Assembly (NCBI RefSeq): GCF_014077005.1
Contig: NZ_JACGVC010000047.1
Location: forward strand, 124,001-188,000
Length of the DNA: 64,000 nucleotides
DNA from: Colwellia sp. MB3u-45
GTDB lineage: Bacteria > Pseudomonadota > Gammaproteobacteria > Enterobacterales > Alteromonadaceae
Direction of reading: 5' to 3'
Shown: positions 1,849 to 64,000 of the stretch, piece by piece
How positions within the stretch are numbered: position 1 is the first letter of the stretch
Layout: the number at the start of each line of letters is the position of its first letter
Notes under the pieces: generated by a model
What the model saw: only the letters and a program-made list of their open reading frames with translations
Told to the model about the DNA's origin: nothing
Databases searched by the model: none
Translations under genes and position numbers: made by a program

Positions 1849-1914
1849 GCAAAAATCTCCTATATAAATTGTTTACCGATAAAGTTAGCATAAGTTACTT
1901 GTAAGTTTGATCTA

Positions 1915-2428
1915 GCTTGGATTTTAGTCCATCGGGTTAATCGCCGGCTATCAATCATGTTAATCGCCTGCTGAGAGTTGACGGACTAAAGTCCGACCTA
2001 CATAAACAATCGCCCAAGGCTACATTATCACCCGTAGGTTTTATGTGGGCTATTGTAGGATGGACTTTAGTCCATCAAGTTAAATGAAATTTAACCGTCT
2101 TTGGCATCAATGCGAACGACAAAACAGTACCTTTTTCAGATTTTTTTTGGTCCATTACGTTAATGGCTCGCTATATAGTTGACGGACTGAAGTCTGACCT
2201 ACAAAACAATCATCGAAATCTACATTGTCACCCGTAGGCTTGATTTAGGTTGGACTTTAGTCCATCGGTTAAATGAAATTTAACCGTATTCGGCATCAAT
2301 GCCAATTGAAAAAATAATACCCGCTGCAAGTGTTTGCTAGCCCATCGCGTTAATCGCCTGCTAATGGTTGTCCGACTAAAGTCCGACCTACATCAACAAT
2401 TGCCCAACGTTACATTGTCACCCGTAGG
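1915..2428. repeat. Tandem composite REP array (three units)
   Basis: The cysC-to-DHH gap is filled with about three tandem units of 189-201 bp, judged by GTTGACGGACT-type boxes at 1977, 2178 and 2367. Each unit has a REP-like palindrome read as GTCCGACCTAC, a spacer with TACATTATCACCCGTAGG, an inverted REP GTAGGTTGGACTTTAGTCC, then a TTAAATGAAATTTAACCG linker. The last unit runs up to the cysC stop codon at 2430. A degenerate REP (GGATTTTAGTCCATC) opens the array. No coding potential is apparent. Confidence 0.85.
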
Positions 2429-2429
2429 A

Positions 2430-3032
2430 TCAATCAGTGATTAAGCCTTGCTTGATCAGATAATCAACCACTTGCTGCGCACATTGTTCAATACTGTTAT
2501 TAGCCGTGTCGATATGAATGGCCGGGTTTTCAGGCGCTTCGTAAGTAGAGTCTATACCGGTAAAATCTTTAATCTCACCTGCTCGTGCTTTTTTATATAA
2601 GCCTTTTGGGTCACGTTGTTCGCAGACAGCGATCGGAGTATCAATAAATACTTCAATAAATTCTCCGTTCTCAAGCTTGTTGGCTGCCATGGCACGATCA
2701 GCGGCAAAAGGAGATATAAACGCGGTTGAGACAATTAAACCAGCATCTACAAACAGTTTGGCCACTTCACTAATACGGCGAATGTTTTCAACTCTCTCTT
2801 CATCACTAAAGCCCAAGTCACCATTTAAGCCATGGCGAACATTGTCACCATCAAGTAAATAACTATGACAATGGCGTTGAAAAAGTAAAGCATCAACCGC
2901 ATTGGCAATGGTTGATTTACCTGAGCCACTAAGCCCTGTGTACCATAACAAACAAGCTTTTTGCTTTTTGATATCAGCGCGTTGTGTTTTGCTTACTTGT
3001 TGAGTGTGCCAAACGGTATTTTCAGTTTTCAT
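2430..3032 (-). CDS. cysC: Adenylyl-sulfate kinase (APS kinase)
   Basis: Phosphorylates adenosine 5'-phosphosulfate with ATP to give PAPS, the second step of sulfate activation. The 200-residue protein carries a P-loop GLSGSGKST at residues 33-41, the DGDNVRHGLNGDLGFS region that binds APS, and the conserved RDPKGLYKKARAGEI segment, all in the order of CysC. Length is typical of stand-alone CysC, and CysN in this cluster lacks a fused kinase domain, so the two complement each other. It lies downstream of the SLC13 permease on the same strand and its stop abuts a REP array. Confidence 0.96.
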   Translation of the reverse strand: MKTENTVWHTQQVSKTQRADIKKQKACLLWYTGLSGSGKSTIANAVDALLFQRHCHSYLLDGDNVRHGLNGDLGFSDEERVENIRRISEVAKLFVDAGLIVSTAFISPFAADRAMAANKLENGEFIEVFIDTPIAVCEQRDPKGLYKKARAGEIKDFTGIDSTYEAPENPAIHIDTANNSIEQCAQQVVDYLIKQGLITD

Positions 3033-3055: not shown

Positions 3056-3179
3056 ATAGCTGTAAGCTAAAAAAGCTTTAAGCTATCAGTTCAAAGCTGT
3101 CAGTAAAAACACAACCAAACGCCCAACTAATCTCTGATCTTTATTTTTTTACTGACAGCTGACAGCTTTAAACTAAACG
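3056..3179. repeat. MITE-like AGCTGTCAG inverted-repeat element
   Basis: The gap between the permease and cysC holds a perfect 15-bp inverted repeat, AGCTGTCAGTAAAAA at 3095-3109 against TTTTTACTGACAGCT at 3146-3160, flanked by further AGCTTTAAGCT and GACAGCTTTAAACT copies. Related sequence recurs near 5500-5540, 33215-33250, 38670-38740, 38990-39030 and 40181-40342. No ORF is present. It may form a stem in the cys transcript. Confidence 0.7.
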
Positions 3180-3198
3180 CTTCTCTTTTATTTTGATC

Positions 3199-4926
3199 TT
3201 AAAACGGAAAAACCACCGGTATCAAGATTAACACCACTACACTATAAGTCAGTGTTATCGGCCAACCAAATTTAATAAAGTCAGTAATTTTATAATTGCC
3301 GGCATTAAACACCATAATATTGGTTTGATAACCATAAGGGCTAATAAAACTGCCACTAGCGCCAAAGGCTACCGCCATCACTAAGGGTAAAGGGCTAACA
3401 CCTAAGCCAATGGCAATATTATAAGCTACCGGAAACACTAAAGCCGCCGCGGCGCTGTTGGTAATAACTTCGGTCAATATTAAGGTAATGAAAAATATCA
3501 CCACCATAGCGATTATGGCACTTTCACCTGCCAGTAATTGCTCAATTTCATGAGCAAAAATGCCTGCGACACCGCTATGCTCAAACGCTTGCGCTAAGGT
3601 TAATGCACCCAGCACAATGAGCCAAATTTCAATCGGGAATCGGCGCTTAATTTCATTCACCGTTAAACAACCAGTTAAAATCAATAACGCTAGATAAAAC
3701 ATTAGGCTCGACAACAAACTTATCGTAGTCACCATGGTCAGCGCAATAGCAATAATAAAGCCAAAAATAGCTAAAGAGTCACGCCAGCCTGACAGCATAT
3801 CATCGGGTTTATGACCAGAAAGAATAAAAAAGTTTTTCGTTAAATTAGTGCGCGCGCAAAAATCGGAGCCAACCGCTAAGACTAAAAAGTCACCCGCTTG
3901 CACTTTTATATCACCGAGTTTGCCAGAAAGCGACGTGCCCTCTCGGCGAATAGCGACAACGGCGGCATCAAATCTTGCCCTAAACCCTGCTGTTTTTAAG
4001 GTTTTACCTACAATAGCAGAATCAGGTTTAATCAATACTTCGGTTAAGTTTTCCCGTAACAAACCCTTTTGCTCAGCAAACAAAGTTAAGCCATCAAATT
4101 GCTGCAAAACTAAAACTTTGCTGATGTCACCACTAAAAATGAGTCTGTCATTTGGCTCTATTACTTCATCTGGCGTTACCGGGGAAATAAGCCGCCCGTA
4201 GCGTACTAACTCGACCAAAAATAAAGTGTCTAAATTTCTTAAGCCATTATCTTCAATGCTTTTTCCAATAAGTTTGGAGTTAGATTTTACTTGTGCTTCA
4301 ACCAGATATTCCTTATCACCTAACTGCTCGTTTGGCGTGTCAGCTAACGTATGTTGACGCAGTAATATAATCAATAAACAAGCAACCAGTGCAGCACCAC
4401 CCACGAGCGTAAAGTCAAAAAAACCTAAACTTTGTTGACCTTGTTCTAGCCATAGCGAATTAACAATTAAGTTAGTTGAAGTACCAATTAAGGTTAAAGT
4501 GCCACCAAGAATAGCGGCGAATGACAAGGGTAAGAGCAATTTACCAGGATTGACCACAGTATTTTTTTTCACTACCGAAATTAATGTAGCGACCACCGCC
4601 GTATTACTGATCAATGCCGAACTCAAAGCGGTAAATACAAGCGTTCTAAAACTTGCCGTAGACGCTTTACCATTGAGCATTAACGCTGATATACGCCTTA
4701 AAATACTGGTGCGTTCGTAAGCAAAAGAACATAACACCAATAATAATAACGTCACTAAACCAGGATTTACCGCATTGCTGAGAATGTCGTCAGTGCTAAC
4801 AAATGACGCCGCTAAACACAGTAACGTTGTACTACCAAAAACGCGCTCGGGTTTGTTTGGGAAAAAAACCAGCCCAATCAGCGTTAATGCAAATATTGCG
4901 ACCAGTAGCCACTGCGTATACAACAT
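3199..4926 (-). CDS. SLC13-family permease with two TrkA-C domains, probable sulfate transporter
   Basis: A 575-residue inner-membrane protein with about five hydrophobic helices at the N-terminus, a soluble middle of two TrkA-C-like domains (about residues 205-370, e.g. DTLFLVELVRYGRLISP and DFLVLAVGS), and a C-terminal helical bundle with the SLC13/DASS signatures SNTAVVATL and TNSAAAALVFPVA. This architecture is that of CitMHS/SLC13 transporters found in proteobacterial sulfate-assimilation clusters. Its place between cysN and cysC supports sulfate (or another oxyanion) import. It is separated from cysN by a REP array of about 450 bp. Substrate is inferred from context; dicarboxylate uptake is the alternative. 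Confidence 0.85.
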   Translation of the reverse strand: MLYTQWLLVAIFALTLIGLVFFPNKPERVFGSTTLLCLAASFVSTDDILSNAVNPGLVTLLLLVLCSFAYERTSILRRISALMLNGKASTASFRTLVFTALSSALISNTAVVATLISVVKKNTVVNPGKLLLPLSFAAILGGTLTLIGTSTNLIVNSLWLEQGQQSLGFFDFTLVGGAALVACLLIILLRQHTLADTPNEQLGDKEYLVEAQVKSNSKLIGKSIEDNGLRNLDTLFLVELVRYGRLISPVTPDEVIEPNDRLIFSGDISKVLVLQQFDGLTLFAEQKGLLRENLTEVLIKPDSAIVGKTLKTAGFRARFDAAVVAIRREGTSLSGKLGDIKVQAGDFLVLAVGSDFCARTNLTKNFFILSGHKPDDMLSGWRDSLAIFGFIIAIALTMVTTISLLSSLMFYLALLILTGCLTVNEIKRRFPIEIWLIVLGALTLAQAFEHSGVAGIFAHEIEQLLAGESAIIAMVVIFFITLILTEVITNSAAAALVFPVAYNIAIGLGVSPLPLVMAVAFGASGSFISPYGYQTNIMVFNAGNYKITDFIKFGWPITLTYSVVVLILIPVVFPF

Positions 4927-4990: not shown

Positions 4991-5432
4991 TTGCCCAACA
5001 CTACATCATCACCCGTAGGCTCTATGTAGGTTGGACTTTAGTCCATCAGGTTAAATGAAATCTAACCGTCTTCGCATACATGCGAATGACAAAATAATGC
5101 CCGTTGCAGATGTTTTGTGGCCCATTACGTTAATGGCTCGCTATACAGTTGACGGACTAAAGTCCGACCTACAAAAATCACAAAAAAACGCCAACGCTAC
5201 ATTATCACCCGTAGGCGCTTGTAGGTTGAAGTTTAGTCCATCAGGTTAAATGAAATTTAACCGTCTTCGCATACATGCGAACGACAAAAAAATGCCCGTT
5301 GCAGATAACTTTGGCCCATCAGGTTAATAGCCCGCTATACAGTTGACGGACTAAAGTCCGACCTACAAAAAAATCGCCCAAGGCTACATTATCACCCGTA
5401 GGCTCTTAACGGTTGGACTGAAGCCCGACCTT
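4991..5432. repeat. Tandem composite REP array between cysN and permease
   Basis: More than two tandem units, with GTTGACGGACTAAAGTCC at 5148 and 5342 (period 194 bp). Each contains the REP pair, a TTCGCATACATGCGAA hairpin segment, a GCCCGTTGCAGAT linker and GGCCCATTACGTTAATGG. The array lies inside what would otherwise be one cys transcription unit. The remaining bases up to 5551 hold AGCTGACAGCTTAAAACTGACAGCT of the second repeat family. Confidence 0.85.
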
Positions 5433-5551
5433 TCAGTTAAAAAATAAATACCAACCTACAGTGATCACTATGCCTTAAACTTATTTTTTAACTTATAACT
5501 AAATTTTAACTGAAAGCTGACAGCTTAAAACTGACAGCTAACCTGCTATTT

Positions 5552-6955
5552 CTATTTCAATAAATCGCGTGCGCCCCAATGTGGGAAGTGCTTGCGAACT
5601 AAAGTGTTAAGTTCTTGCTCAAACGCTGAGTACTGATGATCTTGCTTCGCTTCAAGTGCGCCGTTAATCATACCCGCACCCACAGTAACATTACTCAATC
5701 GGTCAATAATAATAAAAGCACCCGTCGCTGGATTATCACCATAAGCATCAAAATGTAACGCTTCAGCTACTTCAAGTTGAGCAACTCCAATTTCATTTAA
5801 CGCTAATTGGTCAACAGGAAATTTCTCCAAGGTATTAACATCAATGCGGTGATCAATTTTTATTGCGTGCCCTGTGGTGAGCTTACTGCCGTGCTTAATG
5901 TAGTATTCACGGCCTGGTTCTAGTTCGTCTTCATGCATCCAAACAATAGTCGCACTTAGCTCTTTAGCCGAAGTAGGAATACTGCCCTTTTTAACAATCA
6001 TTTCGCCGCGACTGATGTCAATTTCATCTTCAAGGGTCAAAGTAACCGCCATACCGTGATCGGCGCGATCAATGTTGCCTTCAAAAGTTACAATTGATTT
6101 AATCTTACTTTGCTTACCTGATGGCAAGGCAACAATTTCATCACCAACGCGAATATGTCCTGAACCCACTGTGCCAGCAAAACCTCTAAAATCAAGATTA
6201 GGACGGTTAACATACTGTACTTGCAAACGAAATTGGGTAAAGTGTTTTTGATCATCTACCTTAATAGTATTTAATAACTTCATTAACGTAGCACCTGGAT
6301 ACCAAGGCATCTTAGTACTTTCGTCAACAACATTGTCACCATTAAGCGCTGAAATTGGCACAAAACGCACATCTTCAAAAGCTAAGTCATCGGCAAATTT
6401 ACGGTAATCTTTTTTAATCTCTTGATATCGGTCTTGGCTATAATCAACCAGGTCCATTTTGTTAACCGCCACTAAAACATGCTTAATGCCTAACAAAGAA
6501 CAAATATAAGAATGACGACGAGTTTGCACTTGCACGCCGTGGCGAGCATCAATCAAAATAATGGCCAGATCACAGGTTGAAGCGCCCGTAGCCATATTGC
6601 GGGTGTATTGTTCATGGCCTGGAGTATCGGCAATAATAAACTTACGTTTGTCAGTAGCAAAATAGCGATAAGCAACATCAATAGTAATGCCCTGCTCTCG
6701 CTCTGACTGCAAGCCGTCAACGAGCAAGGCTAGGTCAATAGCTTCACCGGTAGTGCCTGATTTTTTACTGTCGTTTTTAATCGCCGCTAATTGATCTTCA
6801 AAGATCATTTTTGAATCGTGTAATAACCGGCCAATTAATGTGCTTTTGCCATCATCAACGCTACCACAAGTAAAAAAGCGCACCATTTCTTTGTTTTCAT
6901 GCTGCTTCAAATAAGCTTCAATATCGGTTTCAAGTAAGTCTTCTGTATGACTCAT
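5552..6955 (-). CDS. cysN: Sulfate adenylyltransferase subunit 1 (GTPase subunit)
   Basis: The GTPase subunit of ATP sulfurylase, which drives formation of APS from ATP and sulfate together with CysD. Motifs are G1 GSVDDGKST at about residue 31, G3 [17 protein letters not shown] and G4 NKMD, followed by EF-Tu-like beta-barrel domains; no APS-kinase domain follows. The ATG at 6953-6955 is preferred because AAGGAA sits 6 bases upstream; an in-frame upstream ATG would add ten residues (to 6985) without a ribosome site. This gives 467 residues, normal for CysN. It starts 90 bp after cysD, in the usual cysDN order. Confidence 0.97.
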
Positions 6956-7045
6956 GTTTTTTCCTTGGAAATCTCTACTCGACAAATTGTCGATTTAATT
7001 AAAATGCTAACACCGTAAAATAAACTGAAATAAGATGACGAAGTT

Positions 7046-7945: not shown

Positions 7946-8417
7946 TGCTGACCACTAATGTTGGCATGATATTATTGATTATCATCATGCCACAGCAGCA
8001 AATCATTATCCATATAACTAAAAGCTTGTTTATACCAAAAAAGTATAAAGAGAAAGGAAGATTAAGCTTCTTATTCTAAAAATATAACCTACGCCAATTC
8101 AGTTAAGTAACTGAAATAAGTAACAGGGCTAAGTGACTACCTAATGGTAAGTGAGGAACAATAATCCAGCGCACATGGTTATTGCTCCAGACTAAACATA
8201 AGTAGCTAGATCGACGTAAAAGCATTTACTAATGCCGTGGAGCAATGTTCTTACATAAGTGTAAGTCATTAGAGTAATGCAGGAGCAATTACCGAGGTGG
8301 CTAGGAACGGCCCTGTAGGCACATGTTTATTGTTCCAGACTAAACATAAGTACCTACATCGCTTAGCCACGCAAATATTGTAGATTTAAACCAGCTTAAA
8401 ATAATCGATTATTTATT
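7946..8417. other. Structured intergenic region with a 42-bp direct repeat
   Basis: No gene is seen in this gap between pgi and cysD. A near-identical direct repeat occupies 8172-8213 and 8320-8361, both reading CACATG..TATTG.TCCAGACTAAACATAAGTA.CTA.ATCG. GGAACAATAA at 8154-8163 can pair with TTATTGCTCC at 8179-8188, and GGAGCAAT recurs at 8239 and 8282. CTTAC-ATAAGT-GTAAG lies between them. The region reads as a partly decayed palindromic element or a structured leader RNA for cysD; I do not recognise it as a known family. Confidence 0.6.
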
Positions 8418-10120: not shown

Positions 10121-10397
10121 GATGGACTAGAGTTCAACCTACATAGAGCCTACAGATAACACCATAAAATTTTTAAGTTTATCTTTTGTAGCTCGGACTT
10201 TAGTCCGTCAACCACTCAGCAAGCAATTACTGTGATAGTTAAAATCCAAAAAATAAGCACTAATGCCAGCCATTGGCTAAAGAGCCATCAAACCTGATGG
10301 ACTAAAGTCCAACCTACAGAGAACCTACATAGAGCCTACAGATAACACCAAAAATTTTGCAGCTTATCTTTTGTAGGTCGGACTTTAGTCCGACAAC
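10121..10397. repeat. Composite REP pairs between pgi and galU
   Basis: Two imperfect units in the orientation opposite to the 1.9 and 5.0 kb arrays: GATGGACTAGAGTTCAACCTACA at 10121 and GATGGACTAAAGTCCAACC at about 10300, each followed by ATAACACCA spacers and GTAGNTCGGACTTTAGTCCG. The rest of the gap up to 10496 has ACTAACAGCTAATAACTT, a degenerate member of the second repeat family. No gene is seen in the 429-bp gap. Confidence 0.8.
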
Positions 10398-31693: not shown

Positions 31694-31782
31694 GGTTGTC
31701 GGACTAAAGTCCGACCTACAAAACAATCACCTCAACCTATATTATCACCCGTGTGTTCGATGTAGGTTGAGCCTTCGGACTG
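31694..31782. repeat. REP pair between tviC- and tviB-like genes
   Basis: One composite REP unit: GGTTGTCGGACTAAAGTCCG, a 30-bp spacer with ATTATCACCCGTG, then GATGTAGGTTGAGCCTTCGG, where the second REP copy has diverged from the TTTAGTCC core. It sits between two genes of one pathway on the same strand and could influence the transcript between them. Confidence 0.75.
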
Positions 31783-33316: not shown

Positions 33317-33408
33317 GGTTGTCGGACTAAAGTCCGACCTACAAAACAATTGCCTAAACCTACATGATCACCCGTGGGCTCGATGTAGGTTAGACTTTAG
33401 TCCATCAG
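33317..33408. repeat. REP pair abutting the SLBB gene stop
   Basis: A single composite unit, GGTTGTCGGACTAAAGTCCG to GTTAGACTTTAGTCCATCAG, ending two bases before the stop codon of the SLBB export gene. CCTACAT and ATGTAGG form an inner inverted repeat across the spacer. Further upstream, 33130-33255 carry GAGACAGCTGTCAG and TTGAGCTGTCAT, members of the second repeat family, so the 324-bp gap has no gene but two repeat families. Confidence 0.8.
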
Positions 33409-33409
33409 G

Positions 33410-36163
33410 TTAAATACCGCTGATTGCTGCAACAGCTACAGCCGCATTATAAATAATTTGTGTGGCTGTTGACCATAATGTTAGGTCATTCATATATTCA
33501 GAATCTAACGGCACTACAATGGTGTCGCCTGGTTTTAATCCGCCATCTACTGCGCCAGCAAACCAGTTACTTTCTTCAACCATTTTAATACTACCACTGG
33601 CCGATATAACGTAAATACGCTCGGCGTCAGCACGTTTTTTAATACCACCACTTTGCACGATATAATCTTCAGTCGACATTGTATTATTATATAAATGTGA
33701 TGATCCCACCTGAACTTGGCCAATAACATTAACTGAATTTGTCTTAGTCGGTACATAAAGTACGTCTCCGCCTTCTAGTAACACATCATTATTATTTGAA
33801 GCCATTAAACTGGGTAGATTAATCACTAAACGCCCTACTGGCTCTAATTTGGTAATATCGGCTAATATTTTTTGACCATCGTCGTAAGATGCTGAGCCAC
33901 CTTGCTCGGTCAAAGACTTAGAGGCCATTTCAATACGTAAGTCGCCAGCAAGCTTAATTAAATTTTTCTTTTCTAGTTCTTTTAACTTTATGCGAGTAAA
34001 TACTGACGCATCAGGGTGAGCATATTGGGTTAAACCGCCGGCTTTACTGACTAAGTCAGCTAAGGTTTCACCACGACTAATAGTATATTTTCCAGGAAAG
34101 ACAAACTCACCTCGTAATTCAACCACATGATTTTCACTCCAGGCCGGAATTTTATGTACATTCAGTCGATCTTTACTTTGCAAAGCAATATCGAAAACTT
34201 CATCTTTTTTTAAGGCTAAGCCTAGGTCGACCTCTAAAGAAATTTTTGTCGCACCTTTCAAAGTAAGTTTATTGCGAGTAACTTCTGCTCGTGCTAAGTA
34301 AGCCGACTCTTTCACGCCACCAGCGGCGGCTAATAAATCACTCACTTTTGCATTTTTCGCTAGCGGATAAACACCAGGAAATTTAACTTGGCCATCTACT
34401 TCAATCAGTTGAATAGGCTGGCCAGAAGCACCTTGTTGACGTAACTTTCTTAGCACTGGCGCTAACAAACGATTACGAGAAAACAAGCCCATTTCACGAA
34501 TATCGACTTCGTCGTCTAAACTACTATTGGTCATCTGTACTAAAGATTGATTGGCTAAACGCCCTGCTTCTTCAGTTACATCAGTGTCTGTTGCATATTG
34601 TGATGAACTGTCGCCATATTTTTCCCAAAACAATTTTTCTTTATGTGACGTTTTAGCCTGTTGCCGCTCTTTGGCAAAAAGTTGCTCTTGGGTAAAAGCC
34701 AATTGGTCTAATGATATTTTTTCATCCAGCTGCTTAGTAACATTAGCAAATATCAATAGTTTGTCGTTAGGTAATAAGACAAGGTTATCAACTGGGTTAG
34801 GTGTTGATTTATTAAGCGCCTTGGCTAAATTAAATTGTAATACTTCAATATTTCTCGCTTGGTCCTTTTGACGCACAATTAAGCCGTAACTTAAATCGGC
34901 AGAAGGCAAGATATGAGAGTCTAAATTAGGTAATAAATCAGCTACTTTAAGACCTTGTTGCCATTGATATTTGCCTGGGCGTGTTACGGCACCAATAATG
35001 GTAATTGACTGGTCATACATACCCGAGCTTTTTAACACCCGAATATAGTCACCGCTTTTTAGTAATTGTTTACGCGCTTTGCTATCCGTTAGGTCAATAT
35101 TCATGATGCTAAGTAAGCTATGTTGATTATAGCGTTCTACCATGGTTGATTGCGGATAAGCAGACGGTAATAAACCACCTGCCATTTCAATAATTTGATT
35201 GAAGTTATCACCAGCCTTTAGCTCGTATATAGCCGGACGCCTAACTTCACCCCGTATTGACACATTTTTACTTTGAGTTGGAATGAAAACCACATCGCCA
35301 GATTGCAACAAAATGTCGCTTGAAGAATCACCGTTTATGAGCAGGTCATATAAATCAACAGTTTGTACTATTTTGCCCGCGCGTTTTACTTCAATATTAC
35401 GTAATGAGCCAATATCGCTAACCCCACCGGCAGCAAAAATAGCGTGCGTAACACTTGAAAGTGAACTTAAGGTGTATGGGCCTGGTTTGTAGGCGTCACC
35501 TAAAACAAAAATACGCATAGAACGTAATTCAGCTAAACTGACCACCACGTTTACACCTATGATGCGTTGTTGAATTCTTTCAGCTAGAAATTTTTTCATT
35601 TCAGCAAACGCTAAGCCAACCACTTTTATCGGTCCAACATCCGGAATAAGTATATTGCCCTCGCGTGTTATCGGCAGTATGTATTCGGCATTTTCTTTAC
35701 CATATATTTGTATCGACAATTGGTCGCCAACGCCCAATATATAGTGATTAGGAATAGCAATGTCCATAGTAGGGGTAAAGGTGCTGGGCGCATTCGAAAA
35801 AACGTCGATACCAAATCTTGTTAGTGGCTTAAATAATTCAGTGTCACTTTCAAACTCAATAACCTCTGCTTGCCCTACCACATTATTTTCAACTGTAGAT
35901 CTTGGCACAACGGGTGTAGATGATAATTGTGTTTGTTGGTTGCTACCCGATATTTGCCCCATAACCGCATCGAGATCAACACCCATGTTTTGCGCTAATG
36001 CCTGCTGCTGAGATTTAGGTAAGTTTTTAAATTGCTCTATTTGCTGCTGGCTAATTTGCGCCGCGATAGCACTAAAAGAGAATGTAAAAACGACGAGAAG
36101 GCTTGTCAGTTGACGAATAAAATGCATCATTGGCGCGTATTTCTTCCTATATACGGGGGACAT
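33410..36163 (-). CDS. Polysaccharide export protein with multiple SLBB domains (Wza-like)
   Basis: A 917-residue secreted protein. After a signal peptide (MHFIRQLTSLLVVFTFSFS, cleavage near IAA-QIS) comes a coil-like Gln-rich stretch, a Poly_export domain at about residues 140-225 (YILGVGDQLSIQIYG), then about six SLBB-type beta-grasp repeats recognisable as GDAYKPGPYTL, GEVRRPAIYEL, GAVTRPGKYQW, GQVKFPGVYPL, GEFVFPGKYTI and a last GQVQVGSSHLY. No lipobox cysteine is seen at the N-terminus, unlike Wza. It probably forms or feeds an outer-membrane exit channel. The start may be the ATG at 36130 or 36127 rather than 36163; AGGAAG lies 12 bases before 36130. Confidence 0.88.
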   Translation of the reverse strand: MSPVYRKKYAPMMHFIRQLTSLLVVFTFSFSAIAAQISQQQIEQFKNLPKSQQQALAQNMGVDLDAVMGQISGSNQQTQLSSTPVVPRSTVENNVVGQAEVIEFESDTELFKPLTRFGIDVFSNAPSTFTPTMDIAIPNHYILGVGDQLSIQIYGKENAEYILPITREGNILIPDVGPIKVVGLAFAEMKKFLAERIQQRIIGVNVVVSLAELRSMRIFVLGDAYKPGPYTLSSLSSVTHAIFAAGGVSDIGSLRNIEVKRAGKIVQTVDLYDLLINGDSSSDILLQSGDVVFIPTQSKNVSIRGEVRRPAIYELKAGDNFNQIIEMAGGLLPSAYPQSTMVERYNQHSLLSIMNIDLTDSKARKQLLKSGDYIRVLKSSGMYDQSITIIGAVTRPGKYQWQQGLKVADLLPNLDSHILPSADLSYGLIVRQKDQARNIEVLQFNLAKALNKSTPNPVDNLVLLPNDKLLIFANVTKQLDEKISLDQLAFTQEQLFAKERQQAKTSHKEKLFWEKYGDSSSQYATDTDVTEEAGRLANQSLVQMTNSSLDDEVDIREMGLFSRNRLLAPVLRKLRQQGASGQPIQLIEVDGQVKFPGVYPLAKNAKVSDLLAAAGGVKESAYLARAEVTRNKLTLKGATKISLEVDLGLALKKDEVFDIALQSKDRLNVHKIPAWSENHVVELRGEFVFPGKYTISRGETLADLVSKAGGLTQYAHPDASVFTRIKLKELEKKNLIKLAGDLRIEMASKSLTEQGGSASYDDGQKILADITKLEPVGRLVINLPSLMASNNNDVLLEGGDVLYVPTKTNSVNVIGQVQVGSSHLYNNTMSTEDYIVQSGGIKKRADAERIYVISASGSIKMVEESNWFAGAVDGGLKPGDTIVVPLDSEYMNDLTLWSTATQIIYNAAVAVAAISGI

Positions 36164-36409: not shown

Positions 36410-36815
36410 GCTGACGGACTAAAGTCCGACCTACAAAACCATCGCTTAAACCTAGATTATCACCCGTAAACTCGATGTAGGTTGGACTTTATTCCATCAA
36501 GTTAAATAAAATTTAACTGTTTTCGCATAAATGCGAACGACAAAAAATGCCAACTGCAAATGTTTGTTGGCCCATTTCGTTAATAGCTGCCTATACAGTT
36601 GATGGACTAAAGTCCGACCTACAAAACAATCGCCTAAACCTACATTATCACCCGTGGGCTCGATGTAGGTTGGACTTTAGTCCATCAAGTTAAATGAAAT
36701 TTAACTGTTTTCGCATAAATGCGAACGAAAAAAATGCCAACTGCAAATGCTTGTTACCCCATTTCGTTAATAGCCGGCTATACAGTTGACGGACTAAAGT
36801 CTGACCTACAAAAAC
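36410..36815. repeat. Tandem composite REP array upstream of the POT transporter
   Basis: About two full units plus a third REP, with GACGGACTAAAGTCCG boxes at 36413, about 36600 and 36787. Each unit has the paired REPs with the CCTACATTATCACCCGTGGG spacer, TTCGCATAAATGCGAA (perfect 7-bp arms) and TGCCAACTGCAAATG linkers. It lies between divergent genes (the SLBB export gene and the peptide transporter). Upstream sequence 36285-36365 carries AACTGTCAGTT and CAGCTTT remnants of the second family. Confidence 0.85.
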
Positions 36816-38829: not shown

Positions 38830-39468
38830 CCTGATGAACTAAAGTCCAAACTACATCGAGCCTACAGGTGATAATGTAAATTTAGGTGATTGTTTTGTAG
38901 GTCGGACTTTAGTCCGTCAAGCTTACAGAGAATACAAAACCTAGTGGCATAAAACCAACCAGACAAATAAACTGAAAGCTATTTTCTTTAAATCTGACAG
39001 CTCAAAACTTAAAGCTGAGCGCTGTCTTTTAAAACCTGATGGACTAAAGTCCAACCTACATCAAGCCTACATAGAACATACGGGTGATAATATAGATTTA
39101 AGCGATTGCTTTGTAGGTCGGACTTTAGTCCGTCAACCTTACAGCGAATACAAAACCTAGTGGCATAAAACCAAGCAGACAAATAAACTGAAAACTATTT
39201 TTCTTTAAACCTGACAGCTAAAAACTTAAAACTGAGCGCTGTCTCTTAAAACCTGATGGACTAAAGTCCAACCTACAACGGGCCTGAATAAAGCCTAAAG
39301 GTGATAATATAGATTTAAGCGATTGTTTTGTAGGTCGGACTTTAGTCCGACAACATTAAAGTGAATACAAAACCTAGTGGCATAAAGCCAAACAGACAAA
39401 TAAACTGAAAGCTATTTTTTAAATCTGACAGCTCAAAACTTCAAACTCAGCGCTGTCTTTTAAAACCT
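38830..39468. repeat. Three tandem ~205-217 bp composite repeats
   Basis: Units begin CCTGATGGACTAAAGTCC (first copy CCTGATGAACT) at 38830, 39035 and 39252, and the last ends at CCTAAGG at 39466, giving periods of 205, 217 and 214 bp. Each unit holds the REP pair, GAATACAAAACCTAGTGGCA, an AAACAGACAAATAAACTGAAA linker and AGCTCAAAACTTAAAGCTGA of the second family. The last copy runs straight into the ribosome site of the next gene. A degenerate REP lies at 38776-38800. This and the terminator explain the whole gap. Confidence 0.88.
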
Positions 39469-40180: not shown

Positions 40181-40342
40181 AGCTGTTAGTTTTAAGCTCT
40201 CAGCTATCAGTCAGTTACAAAGACATAGTTAAAATATAGCTCGAAAACTTCTTTTGCTTTATAACTACCTCTTGCTGAATACTTATTACTTTTAACTGAT
40301 CACTATATTTTACTGACAGCTGACAGCTTAAAACTGATCGCT
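40181..40342. repeat. MITE-like element with ~30-bp terminal inverted repeats
   Basis: Imperfect inverted ends, 40181-40210 (AGCTGTTAGTTTTAAGCTCT then CAGCTATCAG) and 40313-40342 (reading CTGACAGCTGACAGCTTAAA then ACTGATCGCT), agree at 25 of 30 positions by eye. The 102-bp centre has no ORF. It is the cleanest member of the AGCTGTCAG family in the window and lies just upstream of rpiA. Confidence 0.72.
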
Positions 40343-40348
40343 AATTTT

Positions 40349-40372
40349 TTTATTTATTTATTTATTTATTTA
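40349..40372. repeat. Tetranucleotide run (TTTA)6
   Basis: Six perfect TTTA units (40349-40372) lie between the MITE-like element and the rpiA ribosome site, ending 13 bases before the rpiA ATG. Such runs can change length by slipped-strand pairing; whether this one varies is unknown. Confidence 0.85.
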
Positions 40373-53480: not shown

Positions 53481-53555
53481 GATTGCAATCATACTATGCT
53501 TACAAGTAGACAATATAAAATATTTAGATAGATGATATAGATATTATTTTTTTTC

Positions 53556-53690
53556 GCCGAGCTATCTTAGCTAAATTAGTTGCTGTGCAACTAACATGCT
53601 GTTTTAGCCGTAAACCAAATTTGAGTTTTAATTTGAGTTTGCCAGGGTTAACAAGGAAACTTGTTTACCTCCCGACATTGGAAAGGTGAC
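53556..53690 (+). ncRNA. Candidate structured 5' leader of moaA (possible Moco riboswitch)
   Basis: The untranslated region before moaA can fold well: TTAGTTGC-TGT-GCAACTAA (53576-53594, 8-bp perfect), enclosed by GCTAAA (53570) with TTTAGC (53603-53608), then AACAAG-GAAA-CTTGTT (53650-53665), a stem with a GNRA tetraloop extended by flanking pairs, and TTTACCTCCC against GGAAAGGTGA, which would cover the ribosome site. Moco-responsive RNAs sit before moaA in other gammaproteobacteria and use a GNRA loop. This is a fold-by-eye assignment and not a verified family match. Confidence 0.42.
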
Positions 53691-54662
53691 ATGTTAACAG
53701 ACAACTTCGGTCGCAAGTTTTACTACTTGCGCCTATCAATCACTGACGTATGCAATTTTAGCTGCGACTATTGTTTGCCCAATGGCTATCAATGTGACAA
53801 TGATAGAAAATTTCTTACACTGCCTGAAATAACCCGCTTAGCTTCGGCGTTTTCTGCTATGGGTACGGAAAAAATTCGTATTACCGGTGGTGAGCCCTCT
53901 TTACGTAAAGACTTACCTGAAATTATTGCCCGATGTAAGCAAACACCTGGCATTAAAAAGGTTGCTATCACCAGCAATGGTTACAAACTTCCTGAACATT
54001 TACCGGCTTGGATAGATGCCGGCATTGATGCCATAAATATCAGTATTGATACTTTAGACCCAAGACAATTCCATGCTATTACTGGCCACGACAAGCTTAA
54101 ACATATCCTCAAAGGTATTGATATGGCAGTGGCGGCAGGCAATATAGATGTTAAAGTTAATACCGTATTAATGCGTGAATATAATGGCTACGACATCGCC
54201 AGTTATTTAGCCTGGTTAAAAGACACCCCCATTACCTTACGCTTTATTGAATTAATGCAAACGGGTGATAATAAAGAATTTTTTGATGCTCAACACGTTC
54301 AAGGCTCACGCATAAAACAAAATCTGATTTTAGATGGCTGGTTACCTGTTATTAATGACAAGGCGGCAGGACCCGCACAAGAGTTTTATCACCCTGACTA
54401 TGCCGGTAAAATTGGCTTGATCATGCCTTACTCTAAAGATTTTTGTAATACCTGTAATCGCTTACGAATTAGTGCCATAGGTAAGTTACATTTATGTTTA
54501 TTTACTGAACAAGGCTTGTCGTTGAAAGACTACTTGAAAACTGATGATGTTGAACCTTTAAAAGCGGCTATCACCAGTATGTTGACTGATAAAAAGGAAA
54601 CGCACTTTTTACATGAGAAGCTGACTGGCGCAACGAAAAACCTAGCTATGTTGGGCGGTTAA
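53691..54662 (+). CDS. moaA: GTP 3',8-cyclase
   Basis: Radical SAM enzyme for the first step of Moco synthesis. The N-terminal SAM cluster CNFSCDYC (C-x3-C-x2-C) lies near residue 24, GGEPSLRKDL follows, and the C-terminal cluster CNTCNRLRISAIGKLHLC (C-x2-C-x13-C) is intact. The protein ends in Gly-Gly, the conserved activating tail. The ATG at 53691 (MLTDNFGRKFYYLRL) is preferred over a TTG at 53661 because homology starts there and AAAGGTG lies upstream. Gives 323 residues. It overlaps mobA by one base (TAATG). Confidence 0.96.
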   Translation: MLTDNFGRKFYYLRLSITDVCNFSCDYCLPNGYQCDNDRKFLTLPEITRLASAFSAMGTEKIRITGGEPSLRKDLPEIIARCKQTPGIKKVAITSNGYKLPEHLPAWIDAGIDAINISIDTLDPRQFHAITGHDKLKHILKGIDMAVAAGNIDVKVNTVLMREYNGYDIASYLAWLKDTPITLRFIELMQTGDNKEFFDAQHVQGSRIKQNLILDGWLPVINDKAAGPAQEFYHPDYAGKIGLIMPYSKDFCNTCNRLRISAIGKLHLCLFTEQGLSLKDYLKTDDVEPLKAAITSMLTDKKETHFLHEKLTGATKNLAMLGG

Positions 54663-63883: not shown

Positions 63884-64000
63884 CGTGAATTACCTATGCA
63901 TCAGTGCTTGTTATGGATTCACGTTTATGCCGTCGAATAGCCGGTTAGCATGATGGGATGTCATGCTGAATATATTGCTAAATCAAGATGATGGACTAAA
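63884..64000. other. Right-end intergenic sequence entering a REP
   Basis: No gene in the last 117 bp. The final 11 bases (GATGGACTAAA from 63990) are the start of another REP-like repeat cut by the window edge. ATTCACGTTTATGCC and a GTGAATTACC mirror one another loosely near 63887-63930. Confidence 0.6.

Follow-up and report, generated by a model that had tools for sequence, protein, structure and literature searches.

The window analyzed here (the whole stretch of 64,000 nt from Colwellia sp. MB3u-45) contains, between its genes, short palindromic repeats that start with GTAG and stand in inverted pairs and larger units. What these repeats are, how they came to occupy their present sites and what, if anything, still acts on them are the questions that the locus raises.

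Repeat family and array architecture

In the window, the word GTAGGTYGGACTTTAGTCC is present in 28 copies with up to three mismatches (none in 100 dinucleotide shuffles), spread over seven intergenic places, and one further copy is cut by the right edge (C47:187993-188011, C47 being the contig of the window). A preliminary description of this DNA had named seven places and the edge, and these are confirmed; the inverted pairs and larger units that it reported are also real, with periods of about 188-217 bp. The search of the full genome and of relatives that it proposed finds 193 copies at two mismatches or fewer in the 4.17 Mb of this genome (59 contigs; none with the reversed control), and, at one mismatch or fewer, the word in 8 of 16 genus-mates (1 to 288 copies) and in none of the 61 more distant relatives sampled.

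The part of the genome examined closely, 213 kb around REPs, holds 172 copies (three mismatches or fewer), grouped into 35 clusters. All 172 stand outside open reading frames (ORFs) of at least 100 aa, the ORFs being our own calls and not a curated annotation, in agreement with the earlier statement that the repeats never fall inside a gene. An Rfam search returns no family over the repeats at the gathering score. The repeats are GTAG-type REPs in BIME-like arrays, and they form a new family of the already known GTAG-RAYT kind. The arrays of the window are listed below; G012 is a close relative, and the dyad is described in the next section.

1912..2391, unstranded: S1, six REPs of alternating orientation, flanked by an ORF (892-1848, -) and the adenylyl-sulfate kinase gene (2430-3032, -)
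5026..5366, unstranded: S2, four REPs, between 3199-4926 (-) and the cysN gene at 5552-6985 (-)
10124..10391, unstranded: S3, four REPs, no dyad, between the glucose-6-phosphate isomerase and galU-like genes
31701..31719, - strand: S4, single REP (three at the same site in G012)
33324..33403, unstranded: S5, tail-tail REP pair, 7 bp from the ORF at 33410 (eight REPs in G012)
36416..36809, unstranded: S6, five REPs, about one 188-bp unit more than in G012
38836..39348, unstranded: S7, six REPs with a period of 216-217 bp, head-head units without the dyad
63993..64000, - strand: S8, a cluster of three REPs (C47:187993-188386) whose first one straddles the right window edge

Each REP consists of GTAG, two bases and a 6-bp stem YGGACT/AGTCCR with a TT loop. 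GTAG starts 159 of the 172 copies (the search word itself contained GTAG, with three mismatches allowed). The stem covaries, since its pair 7/20 is T-A in 84 copies, C-G in 77 and T-G in 7, and is unpaired in 4 of the 172; the next pair outward of position 7 is a T-T mismatch in 103/172 copies. Among genus-mates, compensated variants of the stem occur (GGACT/AGTCC, GGGCT/AGCCC, GGCAT/ATGCC, GGAAT/ATTCC and GGCCT/AGGCC).

Adjacent REPs at most 400 bp apart form 65 head-head and 62 tail-tail pairs, and 10 further pairs point the same way; of the 127 inverted pairs, 118 have one C-type and one T-type partner. The head-head spacers are similar to one another and mostly 105-117 bp long (56/65); the tail-tail spacers vary in length between 27 and 99 bp. 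Passages of PMC3733652 describe this pattern, with conservation in head-head spacers and variability in tail-tail ones, as general among REP dimers. One head-head unit, folded as single-stranded DNA, is closed by a 19-bp end stem (z -6.5). Units of the head-head type have a median similarity of 0.91 within arrays (76 pairs) and of 0.71 between them (2004 pairs).

Two extra parts had been ascribed to every unit, and both turn out to be local. The pair CCTACAT/ATGTAGG, taken as words, is found in 3/62 tail-tail spacers, and TTCGCAT-AA-ATGCGAA (one mismatch allowed) in 5/65 head-head units, all five in the window. Nor are extra conserved parts foreign to ordinary BIMEs, as had been suggested: parts of PMC3733652 and PMC2817692 describe conservation, structure or IHF binding for some spacers of published BIMEs and of head-head REP dimers.

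The dyad behind T-type REPs

The sequence GTTAAAT-N3-ATTTAAC, which was absent from the earlier list of parts, is a widely fixed extra part of the REP family. At one mismatch or fewer, it stands behind 65 of 91 T-type REPs, whereas none of the 81 C-type REPs has it (Fisher p 2e-26), and in 64 of the 65 cases the distance to the REP is exactly 5 nt. From base composition, 0.18 copies would be expected in the genome. At four mismatches or fewer, the dyad is seen in 57/65 head-head units; it is missing from three arrays, including S3 and S7, and from a few other units. The copies in the window are the following.

2079..2095, + strand: dyad, 5 nt behind REP 2055-2073 (S1)
2268..2284, + strand: dyad, 4 nt behind REP 2245-2263 (S1)
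5050..5066, + strand: dyad with one mismatch, 5 nt behind REP 5026-5044 (S2)
5245..5261, + strand: dyad, 5 nt behind REP 5221-5239 (S2)
36501..36517, + strand: dyad with one mismatch, 5 nt behind REP 36477-36495 (S6)
36689..36705, + strand: dyad, 5 nt behind REP 36665-36683 (S6)

Among 65 dyad copies, changes affect 7 of 910 arm positions and 10 of 195 loop positions (the copies were taken at three mismatches or fewer, which lowers both figures). In an alignment of 41 units, three pairs of the REP stem are changed on both sides and none of its cells is broken; in the dyad, no pair is changed on both sides and 7 cells are broken. The REP thus preserves pairing and the dyad preserves sequence. 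A hairpin at the dyad is rejected on the same counts, obtained with units all picked for having the dyad. The 41 come from 49 non-redundant units, and the eight left out are mostly shorter or longer (one is of ordinary length), some being from G006 and G009 with other stems; the unbiased count of the dyad is the one over all 172 copies. In G006 (4 cases) and G009 (5 cases), the dyad also occurs 5 nt behind a REP with the stem GGAAT/ATTCC.

The dyad is numerous only in the genus-mates rich in these REPs (76 copies in the present genome, 105 in G008, 41 in G012, 29 in G006, 25 in G009, 11 in G016, and 1 in each of two others). Outside the genus, 26 of 141 genomes give one or two matches, about as the reversed control does, and about 528 kb of REP-bearing loci from other genera contain no dyad. 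Every one of the 67 dyads in the 213 kb examined closely adjoins a REP, 65 at three mismatches or fewer and the other two next to an apparently decayed REP (judged by eye); the 213 kb were selected for their REPs, and the genome has 9 more dyads, of 76 in all, elsewhere. That the dyad stands so regularly beside REPs suggests a module of the element and not an ordinary host operator.

The IHF consensus is WATCAANNNNTTR. It is found in 1/65 head-head units and 0/62 tail-tail units, with shuffled means of 0.77 and 0.3; an IHF site as explanation of the spacer is rejected, the consensus not being enriched. That the dyad would be a separate functional module, read as a duplex by a dimeric Colwellia protein or serving as a second recognition site of the transposase, is a tentative proposal that we consider unlikely; if true, the dyad would be held more strictly than the REP stem, having kept its 5-nt phase while that stem was exchanged from GGACT to GGAAT in G006 and G009, and the arrays would be tied to a factor different from IHF. 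As a short and concrete motif, the dyad could explain the conservation of the head-head spacers.

The intergenic regions of the window contain further elements. A second repeat, with words like CTGACAGCTTAAAACTGA, is found at 3146-3202, 5504-5560, 38984-39037, 39201-39254, 39415-39468 and 40303-40356; in S7, the head-head spacers contain it instead of the dyad, and repeats of this type (families D11 and D12) are present also in gaps of G005, G006, G010 and G012. A 43-nt direct repeat (8171-8213 and 8319-8361, 91% identical, 148 bp apart) is located in the gap that precedes the glucose-6-phosphate isomerase gene. At 53543-53705 (+), there is a Moco (molybdenum/tungsten) riboswitch (RF01055, 77.9 bits).

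Transposase linkage within and outside the genus

The repeats had been described as REPs mobilised by RAYT transposases. The GTAG head, the covarying stem, the alternation of orientations and the presence of a RAYT within or next to repeats of the same word in at least five other lineages speak for this; in the present genome, no such RAYT is found. The only Y1 transposase there is a decayed gene with three stops (L001, G000:C44:513263-513586), and the RAYT profile search of the assembly, carried to E 10, gives that gene only and no cognate short RAYT. No REP of this family lies within its 3.3 kb, so that a RAYT flanked by the same REP, as the preliminary description had envisaged, does not appear in this assembly. 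The flanks of the decayed gene read TATCAATGGGGTCA, GGGGTCA-type repeats that resemble the GGGGWSAS motif given, in passages of PMC3733652, for TIR-flanked relatives of RAYTs. The decayed gene belongs to a longer group, with open relatives of about 240 aa in G008, G009, G010 and others.

Short RAYTs were found weakly with a first profile, made from five Y1 proteins of about 205-237 aa, and were resolved with a second one, made from four of those weak matches. Among the matches listed (at least 106 stretches with a longer word, in named genomes), at least five hold a short RAYT, and a sixth fragment lies at the edge of a stretch (L181). The RAYT sits inside an array of the GTAGGTYGGACTTTAGTCC word, among these matches, in Lacimicrobium, Zoogloea and C. 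chukchiensis (with one stop in the last). In a Thiotrichaceae MAG, it lies between two inverted copies of the word, and in Catenovulum there is one copy, 132 nt off, on one side. All four complete short RAYTs exceed the NF047646 cut-off (REP-associated tyrosine transposase). The linked RAYTs are about 150 aa long and carry the motifs DHFH, WQ and YIVANP, which fits subclass 2.5, or group 3, as far as parts of PMC6006769 define it. The longer word is itself present, among the matches listed, in Catenovulum, Zoogloea, Thiothrix, Sideroxydans, Lacimicrobium and Marinomonas, as well as in a Desulfobulbaceae and a Lentisphaerae MAG.

Within the genus, a full-length short RAYT occurs in 6 of 17 genomes (G002, G003, G006, G009, G012 and, with a stop, G016); it was not found in the present genome (G000) or in G008, the genome with the most copies of the word. 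The REPs adjoining the RAYT have the stem GGACT in G016, GGCAT together with GGGCT in G006 and G009, GGGCT in G002, and GGGCT- and GGTCT-like stems in G003; in G012, they read GTAGGGGCGACTTTAGTCG. At the G012 locus (L198, on G012:C27), the full-length short RAYT is accompanied by a different REP pair, GTAGGGGCGACTTTAGTCG and GTAGGGGCGAATTTATTCG. In a group-3 REP of Marinomonas, a 5-bp palindrome lies two bases from GTAG, and the RAYT picks its cut site by GTAG (passages of PMC8266576).

With no cognate RAYT in the assembly, the REP family looks orphaned in this genome. Loss of RAYTs also happens in E. coli strains, according to parts of PMC3733652 and PMC8049555. Some contigs of the assembly (C33, C51 and C26) begin within REP arrays, and a RAYT inside an array could therefore be missing from it.

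Site history and origin of the arrays

Ten of the 35 clusters were compared with relatives and nine are testable (S0 was set aside, its flanks being 10-13 kb apart in both relatives). In G012, REPs are present at 8 of the 9 sites, and S9 has one decayed copy (by eye). Copy numbers in the present genome and in G012 are, from S1 to S9, 6/7, 4/2, 4/2, 1/3, 2/8, 5/3, 6/6, 3/1 and 7/0; at S6, the difference amounts to about one 188-bp unit gained or lost. The sparser relative G005 has no REP at S1, S2 and S4-S7 and one at S3 (6/7 empty), with no flank match at S8 and S9. With sites shared with G012 and copy numbers mostly different, dispersal between sites looks older than the split from G012, and the length of the arrays appears to be still changing by local gain and loss.

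In G006 and G009, several of the same gaps hold REPs with other stems. The loci L211-L218 of these two genomes, in gaps S4, S5 and S7, are REP arrays with the stems GGCCT, GGAAT and GGGCT. At S7, the dyad linker is identical and the stem differs in this comparison, and stems may therefore be exchanged in place or gaps re-used. No clean, aligned junction was obtained among the empty sites compared, and thus they define no insertion boundary or target; S6 of G008 was dropped as an empty site, the gap aligning at its edges only. In five unit pairs between the present genome and G012, changed positions number 17/220 in REPs, 52/491 in spacers (p 0.27) and 2/51 in dyads. On these five pairs, REPs differ about as much as spacers, no significant sign sets REPs or dyads apart as better kept, and hence nothing in them indicates maintenance at present.

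We consider it highly probable that the repeats are non-autonomous GTAG REPs in BIME-like arrays, dispersed in the past by a short group-3 RAYT. This enzyme, of about 150 aa, would have acted on single-stranded DNA and, judging from published work on that RAYT group, would recognise the GTAG head and the stem. The piece that moved was probably one head-head pair, about 145-150 nt long and made up of T-type REP, dyad, spacer and C-type REP; its ends can pair over 19 bp. The RAYT would later have been lost from this genome, or is missing at least from its assembly, and array length may still change by recombination or slippage between neighbouring repeats. Against this explanation stand the failure to find a cognate RAYT in this assembly or a full-length one in G008, the missing clean junctions, and the five unit pairs, which give no sign of present maintenance. 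The situation in G006 and G009, both single-contig genomes, also speaks against it, since the REPs around their RAYT have other stems despite many GGACT copies (74 and 63, respectively).

The same observation, with the RAYT flanked by GGCAT and GGGCT REPs, would also fit a GGACT family that is still mobile through RAYTs acting in trans, and the contigs that begin in arrays leave room for a RAYT in an assembly gap. Yet, compared with G012, none of the nine tested sites stands out as clearly new, and the assembly, with a completeness rating of 100%, shows no short RAYT; continuing mobility thus seems distinctly improbable. A different role, with the arrays kept by the host as structures at mRNA 3' ends or transcription ends, or as protein sites at the dyad, and with mobility secondary, is possible, though rather unlikely. 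The placement of the arrays and the high sequence conservation of the dyad agree with such a role. Of the 32 clusters with both neighbours seen (three further ones lie at an edge), 18 have co-directional, 13 convergent and 1 divergent neighbours, compared with 88, 21 and 16 among 125 background gaps of the same stretches (convergent excess p 0.007; divergent deficit p 0.20), and distances to 3' ends of genes (median 111 bp) are below those to 5' ends (median 245.5 bp). However, section 15 of PMC3733652 reports the same placement for REPs in general. Copy number, moreover, shifts freely among close relatives, with G005 lacking arrays at 6/7 sites, and REPs have diverged from G012 about as much as spacers in the small sample given above. 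Between 1700 and 11000, there are 13 terminator-like sites (shuffled mean 8.6, sd 2.7), of which only one (5411-5430) is in the surroundings of an array; promoter-like sites are at chance level there (21 vs. 22.0). The units of 188-217 bp with their fixed linkers also look like duplicated segments, as if they were what is left of a coding region that had been duplicated, or an ordinary DDE insertion sequence in miniature. Such an origin is extremely improbable: none of the 172 copies falls in an ORF of at least 100 aa, the GTAG head, the covarying stem and the RAYT neighbours fit REPs, and the same word is found in many other genera, without the dyad spacer in those loci examined.

Dispersal by a short RAYT, the preferred explanation, places the family beside several known systems. 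With the GTAG REP superfamily, as presented in the text of PMC3733652, it shares the GTAG head, the short stem, the 2-nt loop and the compensatory stem variants. The paired arrangement is common to both too, with head-head spacers conserved and tail-tail spacers variable, and so is the intergenic position between genes that are co-directional or convergent. That text, on which the comparison is based rather than on the consensus list of its Figure 1, does not name Colwellia. Tandem units, two REP types and alternating orientation recall the E. coli BIME-2 with its Y and Z REPs (passages of PMC2817692), but the Colwellia spacer lacks the IHF consensus and has instead the dyad behind one REP type. 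Like a REPIN, as described in parts of PMC3116915, the inverted REP pair folds into one long hairpin, and tandem clusters occur in both; in Colwellia, however, a fixed dyad is part of the spacer, tandem arrays predominate and the search of the genome yielded no RAYT. By sequence, the linked transposases resemble group-3 RAYTs, or TnpAREP subclass 2.5, with short REPs such as that of the Marinomonas REPtron Mb (parts of PMC8266576 and PMC6006769): the same protein motifs, about 150 aa, and a REP in which GTAG and two bases are followed by a short palindrome, whereas the stem and loop sequences of Colwellia differ. Among the matches listed in a literature search on Colwellia REPs and RAYTs, none describes this family.

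With differing stems, linked RAYTs, genomes in which no RAYT was detected and nearly empty relatives, Colwellia is a genus in which REPs can be compared gap by gap, and in which the fate of a REP population after the loss of its transposase becomes open to test.
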